Positions 42,701 to 51,454 of a stretch of DNA of 64,000 nucleotides are shown here, one piece after another. Position 1 is the first letter of the stretch. Each line of letters opens with the position of its first letter. Below the pieces are notes generated by a model that saw nothing but the letters and a program-made list of their open reading frames with translations, was not told the DNA's origin and made no database searches. The DNA lies in the NCBI RefSeq assembly GCF_002797685.1, contig NZ_PGFH01000001.1, positions 1,178,001-1,242,000 of the forward strand, in the 5' to 3' direction. The translations under genes and the position numbers were made by a program. Source of the stretch: Salinibacterium amurskyense. GTDB lineage: Bacteria; Actinomycetota; Actinomycetes; Actinomycetales; Microbacteriaceae.

Positions 42701-43578
42701 TGGTTTCTGAATTCGAAGCTCAGGTTCGAGCAACAAACGACAAGATCAACGCCCGCACTGGGCGTCCTTTGGCGATGGCAATCATCGTTGGATTGGCTTT
42801 GGGTCTGTCGTTGTTGTTCAGCCTGATCTTCGTCAAAGAGCTCTTCATGCTCTTTGCCGGAGTGCTCGTCGCGTTCACCGCGTTCGAGCTGGCGAGTGCG
42901 CTTCGTTTCTCCGGACTCAAGATTCCCCGTGTCGGAGCGGTAATCGCTGCCGTCGCGGTGGTGCCCGCATCGTTCTACTGGCATGCGGAAGGTCAGTGGT
43001 ACATCACGCTGGCCGGCATCGCCTTCATGTGGGTCTGGCGACTGGTCGAAGTGGCCATTCTGCCGAGCCATCGAGGTTCAGTGCGTTCGATTATGCGAGA
43101 CCTCGGCGCCGGCGTCTTCGTGATGCTGTACGTGGCGTTCCTGGCGAGTTTCACTGTGATACTCACGTCGGAAGACGGCGGCCAGTGGTGGACTCTCGCC
43201 ATGTTGATCGTCGTGGTGGTCAGCGATATTGGTGCGTACGCCAGCGGATTGTCGTTCGGTAAGCATCCGATGGCTCCCACCATCAGCCCGAACAAGACGT
43301 GGGAGGGATTCGCTGGTGCAGCTGCTGCTGCCGTTACTGCCGGTGTGCTACTCGCGCTCTTTATGATCGACCAGCCGTGGTGGGTGGGGCTCATCTTCGG
43401 CCTCGTTATTCTCGGCACCGCAACGATGGGTGATCTCGCTGAATCGCTCATCAAACGAGACCTCGGCATCAAGGACATCAGCACGTGGCTGCCCGGCCAC
43501 GGAGGCTTCCTCGACCGCGTAGATTCGTCACTTTTGTCGGCCGCAGCCGGCTACGCGCTGTTTCTCATCTTTGCGTAA
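42700..43578 (+). CDS. cdsA: Phosphatidate cytidylyltransferase
   Basis: A 292-residue membrane enzyme making CDP-diacylglycerol, the root of phospholipid synthesis. About eight membrane segments and the C-terminal family signature SLIKRDLGIKDISTWLPGHG (residues about 247-266), where the Asp/Lys pair binds metal and substrate. A hydrophilic first about 20 residues. Translated together with frr through the one-base overlap. Confidence 0.95.
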   Translation: MVSEFEAQVRATNDKINARTGRPLAMAIIVGLALGLSLLFSLIFVKELFMLFAGVLVAFTAFELASALRFSGLKIPRVGAVIAAVAVVPASFYWHAEGQWYITLAGIAFMWVWRLVEVAILPSHRGSVRSIMRDLGAGVFVMLYVAFLASFTVILTSEDGGQWWTLAMLIVVVVSDIGAYASGLSFGKHPMAPTISPNKTWEGFAGAAAAAVTAGVLLALFMIDQPWWVGLIFGLVILGTATMGDLAESLIKRDLGIKDISTWLPGHGGFLDRVDSSLLSAAAGYALFLIFA

Positions 43579-43580
43579 GG

Positions 43581-43586
43581 CAGAAT
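43581..43586 (+). promoter_or_regulatory. Possible -10 CAGAAT, six bases before the DivIVA-like GTG
   Basis: GGCAGAAT with CAGAAT-N6-GTG, supporting the start at 43593 within the short gap after cdsA. Confidence 0.35.
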
Positions 43587-43592
43587 AGAACC

Positions 43593-44144
43593 GTGAGCAC
43601 CACATTTCCCCGCAGCCGTAAGTCAAAGTTGGGGTACAACGTCGACCAGGTCGAGGACTTCCTCGAAGAGGCGCGTCGTGCCTACACCGCCGATCGAAGC
43701 GACTCTTCTGTAGTGTCGTCGCGCAGCATTCGCAAGCTGGCGTTTGCCATGCAAAAGGGCGGCTATTCGCCCCTTCACGTCGACTCAGCGCTGGAACGCC
43801 TCGAGGATGCCTTTGCCGCTCGCGAACGCGACCGTGCGATTGCGGAGCTCGGCGAGACCGCGTGGTACGCCAATGCCCGTGCGGAAGCGCAGGAGATTCT
43901 GAACCGCCTCGCCCGTCACGACGGCAAAAAATTCTCTAAGGTGAGCTCGTTCACGATGGGGTACTCGGTCAAGGACGTGGATGCCTTCGCTCAAGAGCTA
44001 GCCAACTACTTTCAGCACGGTGCGCCACTCACGATTGACCGCGTTCGTACCGTTGCTTTCCGCAGCGCCAAGGGCGGTTACCGCGAGGCCCAAGTTGACT
44101 ACCTGCTCGACTCGGTAATCGACGTCATGCTGGCTGTTCGCTAG
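43593..44144 (+). CDS. DivIVA-domain protein (two DivIVA-like modules)
   Basis: A 183-residue protein with two copies of the short DivIVA module: SKLGYNVDQVEDFLEEARRAY at the start and FTMGYSVKDVDAFAQELANYF near residue 117. Each is followed by a similar segment (AFAMQKGGYSPLHVDSALERLEDAF; AFRSAKGGYREAQVDYLLDSVIDVM). It lacks the long coiled coil of polar DivIVA/Wag31, so a different role at the membrane or cell wall is likely. The start is set by family match. Confidence 0.82.
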   Translation: MSTTFPRSRKSKLGYNVDQVEDFLEEARRAYTADRSDSSVVSSRSIRKLAFAMQKGGYSPLHVDSALERLEDAFAARERDRAIAELGETAWYANARAEAQEILNRLARHDGKKFSKVSSFTMGYSVKDVDAFAQELANYFQHGAPLTIDRVRTVAFRSAKGGYREAQVDYLLDSVIDVMLAVR

Positions 44145-45177: not shown

Positions 45178-45954
45178 ATGAGCGAGATTTCCCCCAACGA
45201 CGAGACAGCCACGCCGCCGGAAGCCGAGCCCATTCGTGGCGCTACAGAGTTGCCCGCGGTTCGGGAGAACATCGAACTGCACACGGATGACGGTCTCACC
45301 CTGGTGGGGGAGCTATCGCTTCCCGAATCTGGCCACATTGCCGCGACGTTGGTCACGCTGCACCCGCTGCCGACCGCTGGCGGCTTTATGGACTCCCACA
45401 TCATTCGCAAGGCTGCAGCACGACTGCCGGCGCTAGCGGATGTTGCTGTACTCCGGTTCAACTTTCGCGGAGTCACCTCACCACGCGGTACCTCTGAAGG
45501 CTCATTCGGCGAGGGCACACTCGAGGAGCTCGACCTCGCAGCCGCCATGGATTTCGTGCGCGAGCGCGAGTTGCCCCACGTGTGGCTTTTGGGATGGTCG
45601 TTCGGCACGGAGGTCACCCTCAAGTACGGTCTGCAGCATCCGATCACGGGGGCAATTTTGCTGTCACCGCCGCTGCATCGTGCAACGGCGGATGATGTTG
45701 CTGCCTGGGCTGGCAATGATCGCCGGCTCGTTGCGGTAATCCCCGAACTCGATGACTACCTGCGCCCTGCCGAAGCCGCCGAAAGATTCTCTTCGGTGCC
45801 TGAACTCGAGTTTGTGGCTGTTGAGGGCGGAAAGCACTTGTGGGTGGGGGAGACCCAGACCTATCGGGTGCTCACTGAAGTCGTGGAGCGACTTAACCCT
45901 GTTGTGCTGCCGTTGCCCCGCACGTGGCCACCGGAGTCGCCCTCAGTCGTTTAG
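45178..45954 (+). CDS. Alpha/beta-hydrolase
   Basis: A 258-residue hydrolase: HPLPTAGG near the oxyanion hole, RFNFRGVTSPRGTSEG, and the nucleophile elbow GWSFG (LLGWSFGTEVTLKYG), Asp in VIPELDDYLRP and the closing His in VEGGKHLWVGE. It resembles small serine hydrolases that act on short acyl chains; substrate unknown. Its stop overlaps the convergent AI-2E gene stop in TTAG (45951-45954). Confidence 0.85.
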   Translation: MSEISPNDETATPPEAEPIRGATELPAVRENIELHTDDGLTLVGELSLPESGHIAATLVTLHPLPTAGGFMDSHIIRKAAARLPALADVAVLRFNFRGVTSPRGTSEGSFGEGTLEELDLAAAMDFVRERELPHVWLLGWSFGTEVTLKYGLQHPITGAILLSPPLHRATADDVAAWAGNDRRLVAVIPELDDYLRPAEAAERFSSVPELEFVAVEGGKHLWVGETQTYRVLTEVVERLNPVVLPLPRTWPPESPSVV

Positions 45955-47012
45955 AGGTCCGCCTGTCGCGGAATGATCACCTGTTGTACGACGATGAGAA
46001 TCGCGGCGGCAACAGGGATAGCGATGAGTGCGCCCAGAATGCCGAGCAGCGTTCCGCCGGCGAGTGCCGCGATCACAACGAGGGCGCCGGGAATCTTGAC
46101 GGCCTTGTTCATGATTCGCGGGTTGAGAACGTACGCCTCGAGCTGCATGTAGACGAGGTAGTAGATTCCCACGGCTATAACGCTCGGTGAACCGTTGAAG
46201 AGAAGCACGAGCAGCGTGATCACGATGGAACCGCTGAGGGTTCCGACGAGCGGAATCAGCGATCCCATGAAGGCGATGAAGGCCAGTAGTGCGGAGTACT
46301 TCACGGGTAAGCCGAAGGCCGGGAAAATCAGGGTGAGAACAATAAACGAGAGCACGCCGTTCACCAGGGCCAGCGAGCCCTGACCAATGACATAGCGGCC
46401 GACAGCAGCGCTGACTTGTTCAGCAAGATCTATGAACTTGGCCCGCTTCGTGGCGGGCACGAGCTGGTAGATGCCCGACTTGATCCCGTTGAGTGATGAC
46501 ACAAAGTAGATCGTGAGAATCAGCACGATGATCGCGCCGGTGATCCCGGTGGCGATTCCAATGCCCACGGCGAATACTCCGCCACCGATGGTCGTGACGT
46601 CGAGATCGGCGGCCCACTCGTTGAAGCCATCGAGCAGGTCTTGAACTCCAAGCCACGGTAGTGCGGTCTCGACGTTTTCGCGCACGGTGCCGTCAAAGAA
46701 CGCCGTGACGAGTCGAGGCGTGGCTTGAACGGCGTTTCGTACTTGTTCAGCGATGACGGGAACGATAGCAAAGATCAAGCCCGTAAAGACCCCGAGAACG
46801 CCCGCGAGTACCGTAAGGATTGCTGTCCACCGGGGAAACTTCTTGGTTTCGAGCCACGTGACCACGGGATCCAGTCCGAGAGCAAGGAACAGCGCTGCTC
46901 CCACATACGTGAGAATCGTGGCGAGCGAAATGACGGTCTGACCGATTCCGACCGCGACGAGAACCCCCAGGCCGCCGAGCAAACCAAGGCGGAACGGATT
47001 GAGGATCTTCAT
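45951..47012 (-). CDS. AI-2E family transporter
   Basis: A 353-residue membrane protein with about seven to eight helices and the family region around SLIPLVGTLSGSIVITLLVLL and IGLALG-like ends (GTLLGILGALIAIPVAAAILIVVQQ). The family includes TqsA and Na+/H+ antiporters, so transport of AI-2 itself is unproven. The last about 20 residues are hydrophilic. Confidence 0.88.
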   Translation of the reverse strand: MKILNPFRLGLLGGLGVLVAVGIGQTVISLATILTYVGAALFLALGLDPVVTWLETKKFPRWTAILTVLAGVLGVFTGLIFAIVPVIAEQVRNAVQATPRLVTAFFDGTVRENVETALPWLGVQDLLDGFNEWAADLDVTTIGGGVFAVGIGIATGITGAIIVLILTIYFVSSLNGIKSGIYQLVPATKRAKFIDLAEQVSAAVGRYVIGQGSLALVNGVLSFIVLTLIFPAFGLPVKYSALLAFIAFMGSLIPLVGTLSGSIVITLLVLLFNGSPSVIAVGIYYLVYMQLEAYVLNPRIMNKAVKIPGALVVIAALAGGTLLGILGALIAIPVAAAILIVVQQVIIPRQADL

Positions 47013-47083: not shown

Positions 47084-49423
47084 CTAGTTAACTTCCTCGG
47101 CTTGGTTGAGAACTCCACGAAGGTTTTCGAAGTATCCAGCAACGGTTTCGCGCTCAGCCTTGATCTTCGTGAGACGGTCTTCCGCGTCGCTGACCAGTTC
47201 GCGCGAGCGCTTCTCGGCCTCGTCGACAGTAGCCTTGGCACGCTGTTCGGCATCGGAGAGTTCTTCGGCAGCACGAGCGGACGCATCCGCGAGTACTGCT
47301 TTCGCCTCGGCCTGCGACGACTTGGTGAGCTCTTCGGCTTCGTGGCGCTTCGCATTTGCCTCGCGCACGGCTTCGGCCAGCTGGGCCTGAGCTTCCTCGA
47401 GGTAGTTGTGCGTTTGAGCGGTCGCCTCTTTGTGCTGCGCCAAGAATTCCTTCTCGGCATCATCGCGACGCACGGCGAGCTCTTGCTCGAGGGAAATGCG
47501 AGCTTCTTCTGCTTCACGCTCAATCGTGGTGCGGGTTTCTTCAAGCTGGTGCTTGATCGTTGCCCTCGTTGATTCAACTTCGTTCGCCAGTTCAGCACGC
47601 TGACGCGCAATGTCGCGCTCGAGATCAGCGGTTTGCTTTTCCACATCGTGGGCGAGCGTCGCGCGAGTCTCGCTAACGTAGCTATCGAGTTCGGTGCGCT
47701 TGCTGTCGATATCGGCATCCAGATCGGCGTGACGGCGTGCCATCTCTTCTTCGAGCGCGGCTGTGGCGGATGCAATCTCGGCCTCGAGCTCGTTGCGACG
47801 CGTGCTCATTTCGGCTTCGAACTCGGCACGGGCTGTCGTGCTCTCGTGCTCGAATGCGGCGCGGGCGGTGTTGATCTCCTCTTCGAGGCCGGCCTGAGTC
47901 GTCTCCACGTCACTCTCGAGCGCTGCGCGCGTGCTTGAGACCTCTTTCGCCAACGCCTTCTTGGTGGAACTGACCTCGCGGTCAAGCGCCTTCTTCTGCG
48001 CGGCAACATCTGCCGCGAGTTCGCTTCGCGTGGCCTTGACGTGCGCTTCGAGCTCGGCACGAGTGGTCGTTACTTCGTCATTGAGCGCGGCCTTGGCCGT
48101 GGCAACCTCATTCTCAAGCTCGGAGCGTGTGGTCGTAACCTCTTGCTCCAGCGAAGCCTTCGTGACCTTGACCTCTTGTTCTAGGGCCGTCTTGGTCGTA
48201 GAGACTTCTTGCTCGAGGGCAGCCTGGGTGCTCGTGACTTCGTGTTCGAGAGCAGCCTTCGTCGTGGCAACTTCATCCTCGAGCTCAGCGCGCGTGCTCG
48301 TCACGTCATGTTCGAGCGCCTGACGCGCTTCACGTTCTTCGGCCTCCCAGATTTCGCGAGCTTCAGAAAGCTCGGCATCGAGGGCGGCCCGGGCTGTCGT
48401 GACGGTCTTTTCGAGTTCAGCGAGAGTGTTTGCGGCTTCTGTCGCGGCAGCGTTGCGGGTGGCCTCGGCTTCCGCTTCGAGCGCGGCGTAGCCGGCATCC
48501 AGATCTGCCTTGAGCTTGGCCTGAGCAGCTTTGGTCTCGTTGGCGAGCTTCGCGTGACCGGCTGCGGTCTCGTTGGCGAGCTTTGTGTGCGCTGCCTTCG
48601 TCTCGTTGGCGAGCTTCTCCCGAGCCGTCGTTGTCTCGGCTTCGAGTTCAGCGCGCGCAGTCTCAATCTCGCGAGCGAGATCGGTGCGGGCCTGCTCGAT
48701 GTCGCGCTCAAGGTCTTCGCGCTGCTTGGTGTTCTCTGCCTCGAACGTGGCGCGACCGAGCTCGGCGTCCCGAGCGAGGGATTCTGCTGCCTCGCGTGCT
48801 TCGGCTACTTCGGCTGCGGTGCTGGCGCGCAGCTCGGCCATTGCTCGTTCGGTTTCGGCACGCAGGGCTGCGGCTTCTCGCTTAGCGGAGGTGCGGGCAT
48901 CCGCAGCTTCGGTGGCGACGGCGCCACGGATGGTTGCTGCTTCTCGTGAGGCATCGCCGACGAGCTGTGACGCCTCGTCCTTGGCGCGTGCGACCAGTGC
49001 GTCTGCTTCGGCGCGCGACGACTTGGCGAGTGCTGCGGCGTCGCTCTGGGCATCGTTGAGAATGCGTTCGGCTTCACTCGCGGTCTCGTTGCGCAGCGCG
49101 GTGGTCTCGGCCTGAACCGCCTTGCGCATCTTCTCAGCGTCGATGTCTGCTTGGCTGATGAGCTGAGTCGAGTGCTCTTCGGCAACGCGAAGCATGCTCT
49201 CGAGCTTGGAGCCGAGCCCGCTGTACGTGGGGCTGCCTGATTCATCAAGCTCAGCCTGAAGATCTTCGTTAACGGCGAGGAGTCGCCTGACTTCCTTCGT
49301 GGAAGCGGTGCGGTCTGCTTTGGCGGCAACAAGTTCACGACGAAGCTCGCCGATAAGCTTGTCGACTTCGTCCTTCTTGTAACCGCGCATCTCTGTGCCG
49401 AAATCGGTATCGTTCGCGGCCAA
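47084..49423 (-). CDS. Giant coiled-coil protein with DivIVA-like N-terminus and 40 tandem 11-residue repeats
   Basis: A 779-residue acidic protein. Residues about 8-30 (FGTEMRGYKKDEVDKLIGELRREL) resemble the DivIVA membrane-binding start. Residues about 70-215 are helical Ala/Glu/Arg-rich. Residues 216-655 are 40 consecutive 11-residue repeats with no break (for example LEQEVSTTKTA, LEQEVKVTKAS), i.e. a hendecad coiled coil. Residues 656-779 are mixed helix ending in AGYFENLRGVLNQAEEVN. It may be a cytoskeletal scaffold like Streptomyces Scy or FilP, acting at the pole or division site (inference). TTG start with GAGGAG five bases before it. No cysteine, no membrane segment. Confidence 0.85.
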   Translation of the reverse strand: MAANDTDFGTEMRGYKKDEVDKLIGELRRELVAAKADRTASTKEVRRLLAVNEDLQAELDESGSPTYSGLGSKLESMLRVAEEHSTQLISQADIDAEKMRKAVQAETTALRNETASEAERILNDAQSDAAALAKSSRAEADALVARAKDEASQLVGDASREAATIRGAVATEAADARTSAKREAAALRAETERAMAELRASTAAEVAEAREAAESLARDAELGRATFEAENTKQREDLERDIEQARTDLAREIETARAELEAETTTAREKLANETKAAHTKLANETAAGHAKLANETKAAQAKLKADLDAGYAALEAEAEATRNAAATEAANTLAELEKTVTTARAALDAELSEAREIWEAEEREARQALEHDVTSTRAELEDEVATTKAALEHEVTSTQAALEQEVSTTKTALEQEVKVTKASLEQEVTTTRSELENEVATAKAALNDEVTTTRAELEAHVKATRSELAADVAAQKKALDREVSSTKKALAKEVSSTRAALESDVETTQAGLEEEINTARAAFEHESTTARAEFEAEMSTRRNELEAEIASATAALEEEMARRHADLDADIDSKRTELDSYVSETRATLAHDVEKQTADLERDIARQRAELANEVESTRATIKHQLEETRTTIEREAEEARISLEQELAVRRDDAEKEFLAQHKEATAQTHNYLEEAQAQLAEAVREANAKRHEAEELTKSSQAEAKAVLADASARAAEELSDAEQRAKATVDEAEKRSRELVSDAEDRLTKIKAERETVAGYFENLRGVLNQAEEVN
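47459..48778 (-). repeat. 1320-bp array of 40 x 33-bp coding repeats (hendecads)
   Basis: Codes for residues 216-655 of the giant coiled-coil protein. Consensus is Leu-Glu-x-Glu-Val-x-Thr-Thr-x-Ala-x. The units differ, so it is an old array, with no unit out of phase. Confidence 0.85.
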
Positions 49424-49622
49424 GATTTCTCCTCGATGTCAGCGGAATGAACCCTCTGAGTTTAGTGGGGCAAAGAGGCCTCCTGTCATTTTGGTCTCAT
49501 CCCCAAAAGTGGGCATTCAACGTTCTCCCAGAAAGTTCCCAGAAGAGTAACTAGGTGGCGCCAAGGCGATCGGCTATTCTTGAACGTCTTTGTTGTTGCC
49601 TACCCGAATGGATGGGGCCCTT

Positions 49623-49658: not shown

Positions 49659-49705
49659 GGGTTGTCTTTCCGTGAGTCATCTTGGGCAACACGAAAGGAG
49701 AGATA

Positions 49706-51454
49706 GTGAGATTCGTTCTCGCCATAGTGAGCTTCATGCTCGCAGCCGTCATGATCGGCTACGGCATTGCACAGCAAACAATACTCGCGACCCCGGATGA
49801 GGTTTCAGTCTCAACGGAGACTGACGGCACTGCGCCCCTCACCGTGATCAGCGGCGAGGCGTTTAACACGTACTCGGGCAACCAGACCATCCGTATCGAG
49901 GGCCCGCGCCGGATCGTGGCCGCCTACGGCCGCTCGACCGACGTGATCGCCTGGGTTGGCGACGCCAGCTACAACATGGTCACGGTCGACCCGGAAACGG
50001 GCGATCTCGTCTCCGAGACCATCACGGGCACCGAACAAGAGGTTCCCGACCCCTATAACTCCGACCTCTGGCTTGAGAACTACGAAGCCGAAGACGAACT
50101 TGCTCTCACTGTGAAGATTCCAAGTGATGTGTCGTTCATCTTGGCATCGGATGGAGTCGACCCGGCACCCAACGCCGTCTCACTGTCGTGGCCACTCGAT
50201 AACAGCACGCCGTGGGCCGGAACGCTCATTCTTGGTGGTGCTGCCGTGCTGCTGATCGGGCTCATCTTCTTGATGTGGGCTGTGCACCACATGCGTCGTG
50301 CCGGCGGACCTCGCCGCAAGCCGCAAAAGATGCCCAAGGTTCCTAAGAAGCCTCGCTACAAGCCTTCGAAGCGCGGCGCTAAGGCAAGCGACGCACCCTC
50401 GCTCCGCACGAGCGTTCGCGTTGCTGTGCCGACCGTGCTGGTCAGCGCGCTTATTTTGAGCGGCTGCACCGCATCCACCGCTCCGAACTCCGCCGCAGAT
50501 CAGAGCGATCCCACGCCGACCCCCACCTCAACGTCAGAGGGCAGCACTGTCACAGCCCCCGCGGTCGCGGTTCGCCAGATCGAGAAGATCGTCGCTCAGA
50601 TCAGTGCCGTTTCTCAAGAAGCTGATGAGGAGCGCGACTCAGATTTGCTTGAGACTCGGTTCTCCGACGCGGCGCTCGAGTACCGTCTCGCGAACTACAA
50701 GATGCGCAAGGCCGACGACTCGATCGCTCTGCCGGTTGCGATCCCCGATGGACCGGTGCAACTGACGTTGCCGCAGCAGACCGAGACCTGGCCGCGAACG
50801 GTGTTCACGATCATCCTCGACGAGACCGACTCCACCGTCGCGCCGATCGCTCTGTTCCTTGAGCAAGCGACCCCGCGCGATAACTACAAGGTCAGCTATG
50901 CCATGAACTTGGAGCCCTCCGTGGTGTTCCCGGATGTCGCAGCAGCGAGCGTCGGAACCTCGCGTCTGCCCGCCGACAGCGGACTTCTGCGTTCGTCGCC
51001 GACCGAGGTTGCCCTCGACTACGCCGAAATCCTCGAACAGGATGTCGACAGCGACTCCTACCTCGACTTCGAAGCGGAAGGCGACAGCTTGCGCGTGAGC
51101 GTTGGCCTAGCCGTCAAGAACAAAGAGAAAGCGGCGCTCTCCAGCACCGCCACTCTGACTTACGGTCACGAACTCGGGTCTGCCGACCCCATCGCGATGG
51201 CCACGATTGACGCTGGCGCGATTGTGGCGGTGCATCTCTATGAGACCAAGGTTGCAGCGCCGAAGGAAGAGGGCTCTGCCGTCACCTTCAGCGGGCAGAC
51301 AAAGGCTCTGTCGGGAATCTCGATTACCGAAGAGGGCATTAAATCCACCTACGGCGATCAGCTACTCTTTTATGTCCCCGCAGCGGGCAGCGGCGAGAAA
51401 ATCGTTCTGCTCGGCTACACCCAAGGACTCGTTGCAGCATCGGAGTTGAAATGA
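49706..51454 (+). CDS. Membrane protein with internal lipobox-like segment, unknown function
   Basis: A 582-residue protein. First TM segment at residues about 4-24 (FVLAIVSFMLAAVMIGYG), an extracytoplasmic domain to about 168, second TM about 170-192, a Lys/Arg/Pro-rich cytoplasmic stretch (RRKPQKMPKVPKKPRYKPSK), then a third hydrophobic stretch VLVSALILSGC whose Cys254 follows a lipobox-like LSGC. The remaining about 330 residues form a secreted-looking beta-rich domain with no known family. GTG start with AAAGGAG five bases before it; a TTG eight codons upstream is unlikely. It looks like a membrane protein joined to a lipoprotein. The stop overlaps the next gene (ATGA). Confidence 0.75.
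   Translation: MRFVLAIVSFMLAAVMIGYGIAQQTILATPDEVSVSTETDGTAPLTVISGEAFNTYSGNQTIRIEGPRRIVAAYGRSTDVIAWVGDASYNMVTVDPETGDLVSETITGTEQEVPDPYNSDLWLENYEAEDELALTVKIPSDVSFILASDGVDPAPNAVSLSWPLDNSTPWAGTLILGGAAVLLIGLIFLMWAVHHMRRAGGPRRKPQKMPKVPKKPRYKPSKRGAKASDAPSLRTSVRVAVPTVLVSALILSGCTASTAPNSAADQSDPTPTPTSTSEGSTVTAPAVAVRQIEKIVAQISAVSQEADEERDSDLLETRFSDAALEYRLANYKMRKADDSIALPVAIPDGPVQLTLPQQTETWPRTVFTIILDETDSTVAPIALFLEQATPRDNYKVSYAMNLEPSVVFPDVAAASVGTSRLPADSGLLRSSPTEVALDYAEILEQDVDSDSYLDFEAEGDSLRVSVGLAVKNKEKAALSSTATLTYGHELGSADPIAMATIDAGAIVAVHLYETKVAAPKEEGSAVTFSGQTKALSGISITEEGIKSTYGDQLLFYVPAAGSGEKIVLLGYTQGLVAASELK

Follow-up and report, generated by a model that had tools for sequence, protein, structure and literature searches.

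The gene studied here lies in a 64,000-nucleotide stretch of Salinibacterium amurskyense DNA, referred to below as the window. Judged by its sequence, it encodes a Microbacteriaceae member of the FilP (intermediate-filament-like) family. The protein joins a DivIVA-like head to a long hendecad rod, and among its orthologues the length of the coil differs mostly by whole 11-residue units. We consider it probable that it is a FilP-family rod which forms polar filaments or a mesh, with a length that evolves by 33-bp units and a phase that is maintained by purifying selection. The features of the locus are given in Table 1.

Table 1. Features of the FilP-family locus and its direct neighbours, in window coordinates.
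Feature	Position	Strand	Description or basis
FilP-family coiled-coil gene	47084..49423	-	779 aa, TTG start, TAG stop
GAGGAG, ribosome-binding-site-like, ahead of the TTG start	49429..49434	-	seen in the sequence
DivIVA-like head, residues 5-62	49238..49411	-	profile matches to GpsB/DivIVA structures; RGYKKDEVD is residues 13-21 (49361-49387)
Second FilP motif PTYSGLGSKLESMLRVAEE, residues 65-83	49175..49231	-	aligned with PSYAGLGARVEKILRLAEE of Scy-neighbouring proteins
First hendecad block, residues 72-215, register unlike that of the rod	48779..49210	-	11/3 harmonic phase
Rod, 40 uninterrupted 11-residue units, residues 216-655	47459..48778	-	unit split, periodicity
C-terminal part, residues 656-779	47087..47458	-	landmark RETVAGYFENLRGVLNQAE, residues 758-776 (47096-47152), and Scy-neighbour alignment
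AI-2E family transporter gene, 71 bases downstream, same strand	45951..47012	-	Pfam PF01594, 166.5 bits
Divergent upstream gene, 590 aa, weakly SCO2278-lipoprotein-like	49682..51454	+	NCBIfam NF053531, 32.6 bits, below the cut-off of 210

The assignment to the FilP family is based on both ends of the protein. As FilP reference we used the RGY protein that adjoins Scy, found in six of the eight fetched loci with a reading frame of 326-333 codons and taken to be FilP from the gene context described in the available text of PMC9858780. Residues 1-110 aligned with six Scy-neighbouring proteins over 97-103 residues at 33-34% identity (E 1e-11 to 6e-11 for the six-protein set), and the RGY and P[ST]YxGLG motifs fell on their counterparts. 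Both conserved stretches of the head match the family-defining motifs of FilP as far as the available part of PMC2680258 describes them. The C-terminal part aligned with the same reference over 89 residues at a similar identity of 33-34% (E 1e-6 to 7e-6, again for a set of six), which is weaker evidence than the head match due to its biased composition. The head alignment with both motifs and the C-terminal alignment together place the protein in the FilP family. The first-pass annotation had seen a relation in idea to Scy or FilP; by the head alignment this turned out to be sequence homology to FilP, although the low identity of only 33-34% counts against our model. The closest named relatives are proteins of Salinibacterium and of marine actinobacterium PHSC20C1 (81-88% identity, five loci). 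A search of a plasmid collection for a named FilP gave one weak match from Nonomuraea, which carried no annotation. Open reading frames on the plus strand across the gene, for example at 48209-48949, were judged to be shadow ORFs of the repeat.

The DivIVA-like N-terminus proposed in the first-pass annotation was supported by profile searches. Using a profile of 40 heads, the PDB returned GpsB at E 7e-5 and DivIVA (2wuj) at E 9e-5, with nine distinct GpsB/DivIVA sequences between 7e-5 and 9e-4; at E > 0.02 another GpsB and Wag31 (6lfa, 0.076) occurred among unrelated coiled coils. When residues 1-130 were submitted as a single sequence, the sole match was GpsB 6gqa at E 0.22. The domain models scored below threshold: DivI1A_domain reached 18.7 bits with the complete sequence and 21 with residues 1-215 alone (cut-off 22), and PF05103 reached 21.2 bits (cut-off 28). 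The RGYKKDEVD sequence agrees with the DivIVA-like motif RGYDxxEVD at six of seven fixed positions, the capping D being K. G69, L70 and G71 are invariant across the 40 heads. The RG[YF] motif was present in 88 of 88 orthologues, at 59 residues from the end of GLG in 87 of them and at 66, one heptad more, in the remaining one; orthologues lacking a DivIVA-like N-terminus were looked for and not found. For the heptad coil that follows the motif in DivIVA-like domains (PMC9858780) the signal was mixed: residues 23-66 had an amplitude of 4.69 at 7/2 and 2.44 at 11/3, and for residues 1-44 the order was reversed (1.74 and 4.41). The extra seven residues found in one of the 88 Microbacteriaceae heads and in four of 40 heads from other families (spacing 66; 59 in the other 36) fit a heptad coil.

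DivIVA or Wag31 proper was rejected as an identity for the protein (NF050102, 30.7 bits against a cut-off of 260), and the genome has a separate DivIVA gene (PF05103, 50.9 bits). DivIVA/Wag31 and GpsB share the head domain with the 779-residue protein and differ from it in rod and tail. The window also encodes a DivIVA-domain repeat protein at 43485-44144 on the plus strand, which scores 195.4 bits with TIGR03543 (cut-off 154.2). Nearby are genes that we take, from inspection of the sequence, to be pyrH (UMP kinase), frr and cdsA. This fits the PolyDIV family, whose genes are mostly located near UMP kinase according to the available text of PMC9858780. With the FilP-family protein, the window thus carries two different DivIVA-like proteins.

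The repeat structure of the rod was confirmed. Exactly 40 units of 11 residues fill the stretch from residue 216 to 655 with zero phase breaks, as had been stated in the first-pass annotation, and a hydrophobic residue leads nearly every unit (L 33, F 3, I 2, W 1, A 1; 39 of 40 within LIVMFWY). The best register of each of 2000 shuffled sequences gave at most 17 such leads. The unit consensus is L-E-x-E-V-x-T-T/A-R-A-x. The power of the LIVMFYW residues over this region was 62.3 at a period of 3.667 (11/3) and 0.4 at 3.5 (7/2). With the Kyte-Doolittle scale, the largest peak (42.9) was at 5.49, corresponding to the second harmonic of 11; the values at 3.667 and 3.5 were 14.9 and 0.4. Both scales are low at 3.5, so by either measure a heptad fits worse than a hendecad; an equally good heptad fit was sought and not found. 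The length of about 65 nm calculated earlier for the 440 residues is arithmetically correct.

Two details of the earlier description needed adjustment. Val, Thr or Ala had been placed near positions 5 and 10 of the unit; position 5 indeed belongs to the hydrophobic seam, which is formed by positions 1 (L), 5 (V/I) and 8 (T/A) with 4-3-4 spacing, but position 10 (A) faces the opposite side. Small residues occur in the core, with T, A or G at position 8 in 32 of the 40 units, and the seam is flanked by an acidic position 4 (E/D) and a basic position 9 (R/K). Further, the 40 units stand as a rod of constant register, but the hendecad region extends on both sides of it. Windows starting at residues 67 to 177 had the same 11/3 period with a phase of 50-74 degrees versus 97-133 degrees in the rod, and weaker hendecads continue beyond residue 655. 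The hendecads of different register in these windows show that the 40 units are the constant-register part rather than the entire coil. Between GLG and the C-terminal motif lie 689 residues, equal to 62 units plus 7; with 0.1485 nm for each residue this amounts to about 102 nm.

Amphipathic 11-residue repeats are also characteristic of group 3 LEA proteins. The protein could be a lipid-surface protein of the apolipoprotein or group 3 LEA type, and the Pfam Apolipoprotein family (PF01442) scored 83 bits, under its gathering score of 90. We consider this highly improbable and rejected the family: the score is too low, the hydrophobic face is narrow (three of 11 positions) with E/D at 4 and R/K at 9, a coiled-coil seam pattern, and the head bears both FilP motifs.

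To follow the protein through related genomes we collected orthologues. A match was found in all 26 other genomes of the genus that were searched and in 126 of 150 genomes drawn from the family, which include the own genome and two of the same genus. The 88 orthologues measured comprise the own protein, 25 from the genus (G019 was dropped because its contig ends within the gene) and 62 of the 123 other-genus matches, taken where both ends were listed, a sample that favours strong matches and leaves out 61 others. The C-terminal landmark was found in all 88. Gene order was compared at 86 loci, of which L038 and L109 seem to be one contig counted twice and eight represent the window's clade. The AI-2E transporter gene was found at 85 of these and the divergent upstream gene at 86, and this conservation supports orthology. 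The transporter gene lies 3' of the FilP-family gene at the 85 loci; the conserved pair may form an operon and have a role in common.

The proteins range from 450 to 969 residues. Between GLG and the C-terminal motif there were 42 distinct lengths from 355 to 876 residues, holding 32 to 79 units. Modulo 11 these lengths fell almost entirely into two classes: 69 of 88 gave 7, and 18 gave 3, which corresponds to one heptad more or four residues less. The last one, L074, gave 2; it is the only orthologue that fits neither 11n nor 11n+7, and it also has a long branch. On a tree computed by a quick method from the head and tail parts, at least 54 length changes were required versus at least three changes of length class; with 37 of its 85 inner branches weakly supported, these are minimum counts on an uncertain tree. 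Among 29 cherries, some weakly supported, 15 differed in length, 14 of these by 11n and one by 40 (33 + 7). For 14 of 15 the binomial probability is 4e-14 under an expectation of 1 in 11.

This variation bears on the first-pass idea that the protein may be a polar or septal ruler. In a strict molecular ruler, selection would fix an exact number of units that sets a polar or septal distance. The 11 genomes of the window's clade are identical in landmark-to-landmark length, as a ruler would require. With 1.4 changes expected on the short branches of the clade, the probability of seeing none is 0.25, which is not significant, and a unit count of 32 to 79, with 42 lengths in 88 orthologues, is at odds with a fixed length. 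We therefore regard a ruler as very unlikely; the data support a phase-locked rod whose length varies.

The 11-residue steps were also found by counting alignment gaps, which does not depend on the tree. In 57 nearest-neighbour pairs with at least 50% identity (six of 63 pairs fell below this and were dropped), 65 of the 77 gaps before the tail, that is in head and rod, were multiples of 11; 73 of the 77 were in the rod. Eight of the other 12 pair up within one alignment to a sum of 33 or 99 (48 + 51, 15 + 18 twice, 8 + 25), three (18, 7 and 7) have the form 11n+7, and a gap of 5 between L074 and L142 fits neither pattern. The eight gaps in the tail were 1, 1, 2, 4, 8, 10, 13 and 17. As controls we used the two neighbouring genes in 55 nearest-neighbour pairs, which for the most part join the same genomes; no identity filter was applied here. 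The window's clade (L003-L013, no flanks) was excluded, as were L106 from the upstream-gene set and L082 from the transporter set. Multiples of 11 were rare in these genes (4 of 239 gaps in the upstream gene and 1 of 62 in the transporter gene), so the 11-residue habit is not general to these genomes.

A possible cause of such steps is a purely mutational habit, in which adjacent 33-bp repeats recombine or slip without any selection on phase. DNA repeats with a period of 33 or 66 do occur (71-82% matches). Gain of a tandem unit was seen once clearly: L096 and L123 are 88% identical, and the extra 11-residue unit that separates them is a perfect copy of the preceding stretch when the gap is allowed to slide. 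For most of the other insertions tested, agreement with the adjacent units is only 42-73%, in some cases no higher than with distant ones. Mutational bias can add 33-bp steps but should not delete those of 3-12 bp, and gaps of 1-4 residues, which are the most frequent kind in the two control genes (183 of 239 in one, 44 of 62 in the other, mostly 1-3 residues), numbered 0 of 77 in head and rod, while the tails of the same proteins accept them (4 of 8). The lack of short indels points to selection on phase, and mutation alone seems an unlikely explanation. In L139, residues ~373-427 form a 55-residue insertion of five near-identical 11-residue units, seen in the DNA as a tandem repeat with a period of 33 bp, 4.8 copies and 80% matches.

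We infer that the phase of the coil is maintained by selection and not by mutation alone. The constant head combined with a phase-keeping rod suggests that selection sees the register of the ends, or at least an unbroken core. The distribution of invariant positions agrees with this: in 11 orthologues of equal length, 133 of 200 seam and flanking positions were invariant versus 96 of 240 outer positions (Fisher 4e-8).

Outside the Microbacteriaceae the pattern was weaker. Of 119 genomes in the order, 94 had a match to the head profile. From these, 40 of the best places outside the family, covering eight families, were taken; three of these proteins had no C-terminal landmark and were left unmeasured. 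The 37 measured lengths gave, modulo 11, 28 in class 0 (nine lengths), five in class 10, three in class 4 and one in class 2. One family spans three classes, and in another one of five members (L188) breaks the class of its family. Three families show one length each and are uninformative on steps; one of the eight has a single measured member. In view of the exceptions the 11-residue rule is strong but not absolute, and the test is weaker at this level than within the Microbacteriaceae. Some FilP-type proteins come close to the length of Scy, namely L069 (969 residues) and L105 (945 residues) in the Microbacteriaceae and, elsewhere in the order, L188 (1182 codons if counting starts 12 before RGY).

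The relation to Scy of Streptomyces needs separate consideration, since the available text of PMC9858780 describes FilP and Scy as probable paralogues, so that their functions could overlap. Instead of forming filaments as FilP does, the protein could be a Scy-like tip-organizing scaffold for other proteins. Its 779 residues, and up to 969 in orthologues, lie between FilP and Scy, and a search of the own genome with the NCBIfam Scy model (NF041483) gave no match, so the role might have been taken over. Of 148 genomes in the class, 10 passed the model's cut-off of 1040 bits, and these ten belong to one genus. Scy is, like our protein, a long hendecad rod of the same superfamily. The best score of the protein with the model, for residues 62-215, was 23.4 bits, on which identity with Scy was rejected, and both of its ends align with FilP. 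A scaffold function of this kind is possible but doubtful.

The closest known systems include FilP/AbpS of Streptomyces (SCO5396) and the FilP family of actinomycetes (Bagchi 2008, PMC2680258; Javadi 2019, PMC6599971). The available text of PMC6599971 describes FilP rods of 37 nm that form striated filaments and meshes with 60 nm repeats, in which the major bands mark the heads. According to the accessible part of PMC4255298, FilP is an interaction partner of DivIVA and lends mechanical strength to hyphae, and its orthologues are widespread in simple actinobacteria. The Janibacter and M. bovis members of the family also assemble into filaments in vitro (PMC2680258, available text). Compared with FilP/AbpS, the 779-residue protein is about two and a half times longer, has K instead of D after RGY, and has an AI-2E transporter gene as its constant neighbour, with Scy not found in the own genome. 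FilP proteins of Micrococcales were placed by Martinez-Goikoetxea and Lupas (2023, PMC9858780) in a FilP/Scy group of DivIVA-like proteins, likewise actinobacterial, with lengths from below 200 to above 1000 residues and expansion by hendecads, as given in the available text. The pattern used there to collect sequences, GY[DN]xx[QE]V[DN] in the text available, misses the 779-residue protein due to the K after RGY and matches 29 of the 88 orthologues. The same available text contains no report of lengths that differ by multiples of 11, nor did a literature search covering titles, abstract openings and few subscription journals reveal one. Length evolution in 11-residue steps seems to be new. 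According to the available part of PMC5344682 (Buermann 2017), the arms of SMC proteins are likewise functional only in periodic regimes of coil length, which natural lengths mirror. Those arms are heptad coils of an ATPase with a multimodal length distribution, whereas the FilP-family rod has many lengths one hendecad apart.

In our model two chains would pair via their heads and along a hendecad coil that is long, almost without twist and held together by the seam. The coil would be parallel, with the head at one end, in a polar or subapical network. A higher oligomer than a dimer is possible because, from the geometry, Leu points most directly at the axis, a place where dimers favour a small residue (PMC9858780, available text). 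By analogy with FilP, the rods may self-assemble to filaments or a mesh close to where the poles grow, with a coupling to DivIVA. Such a network would stiffen a cell that has no MreB: in the own genome, which is given as 99.99% complete, the only match to an MreB model was at G000:C1:401438-402424 (L145), which is HSP70 and was rejected as MreB, so MreB seems absent. Rod length would change through gain or loss of whole 33-bp units, with purifying selection clearing indels that break the phase, so that head and tail keep their register while the coil between both motifs drifts from ~53 to 130 nm.

A further reading, which we put forward only tentatively, is that FilP in Micrococcales is a phase-locked, length-evolvable strut. 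Selection would preserve the register between head and tail, allowing steps of 11 and rarely 7, while rod length would be tuned by lineage and set the period or mesh size of the polar network, and lengths like those of Scy would be reached by unit gain without a Scy paralogue. The lack of a Scy match on which this reading draws refers to the window's own genome.

The orthologues provide a natural series of 42 lengths in 88 proteins, mostly separated by whole steps of ~1.6 nm, with a constant head and a recognizable tail. If FilP filaments repeat with the length of the rod, as is suggested by Streptomyces FilP with its rods of 37 nm and its repeat of 60 nm (PMC6599971, available text), the series could be used to test its effect on filament period, stiffness and cell shape. 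The family looks like a clear natural case of a long coiled coil that drifts in length but whose phase is preserved by selection.
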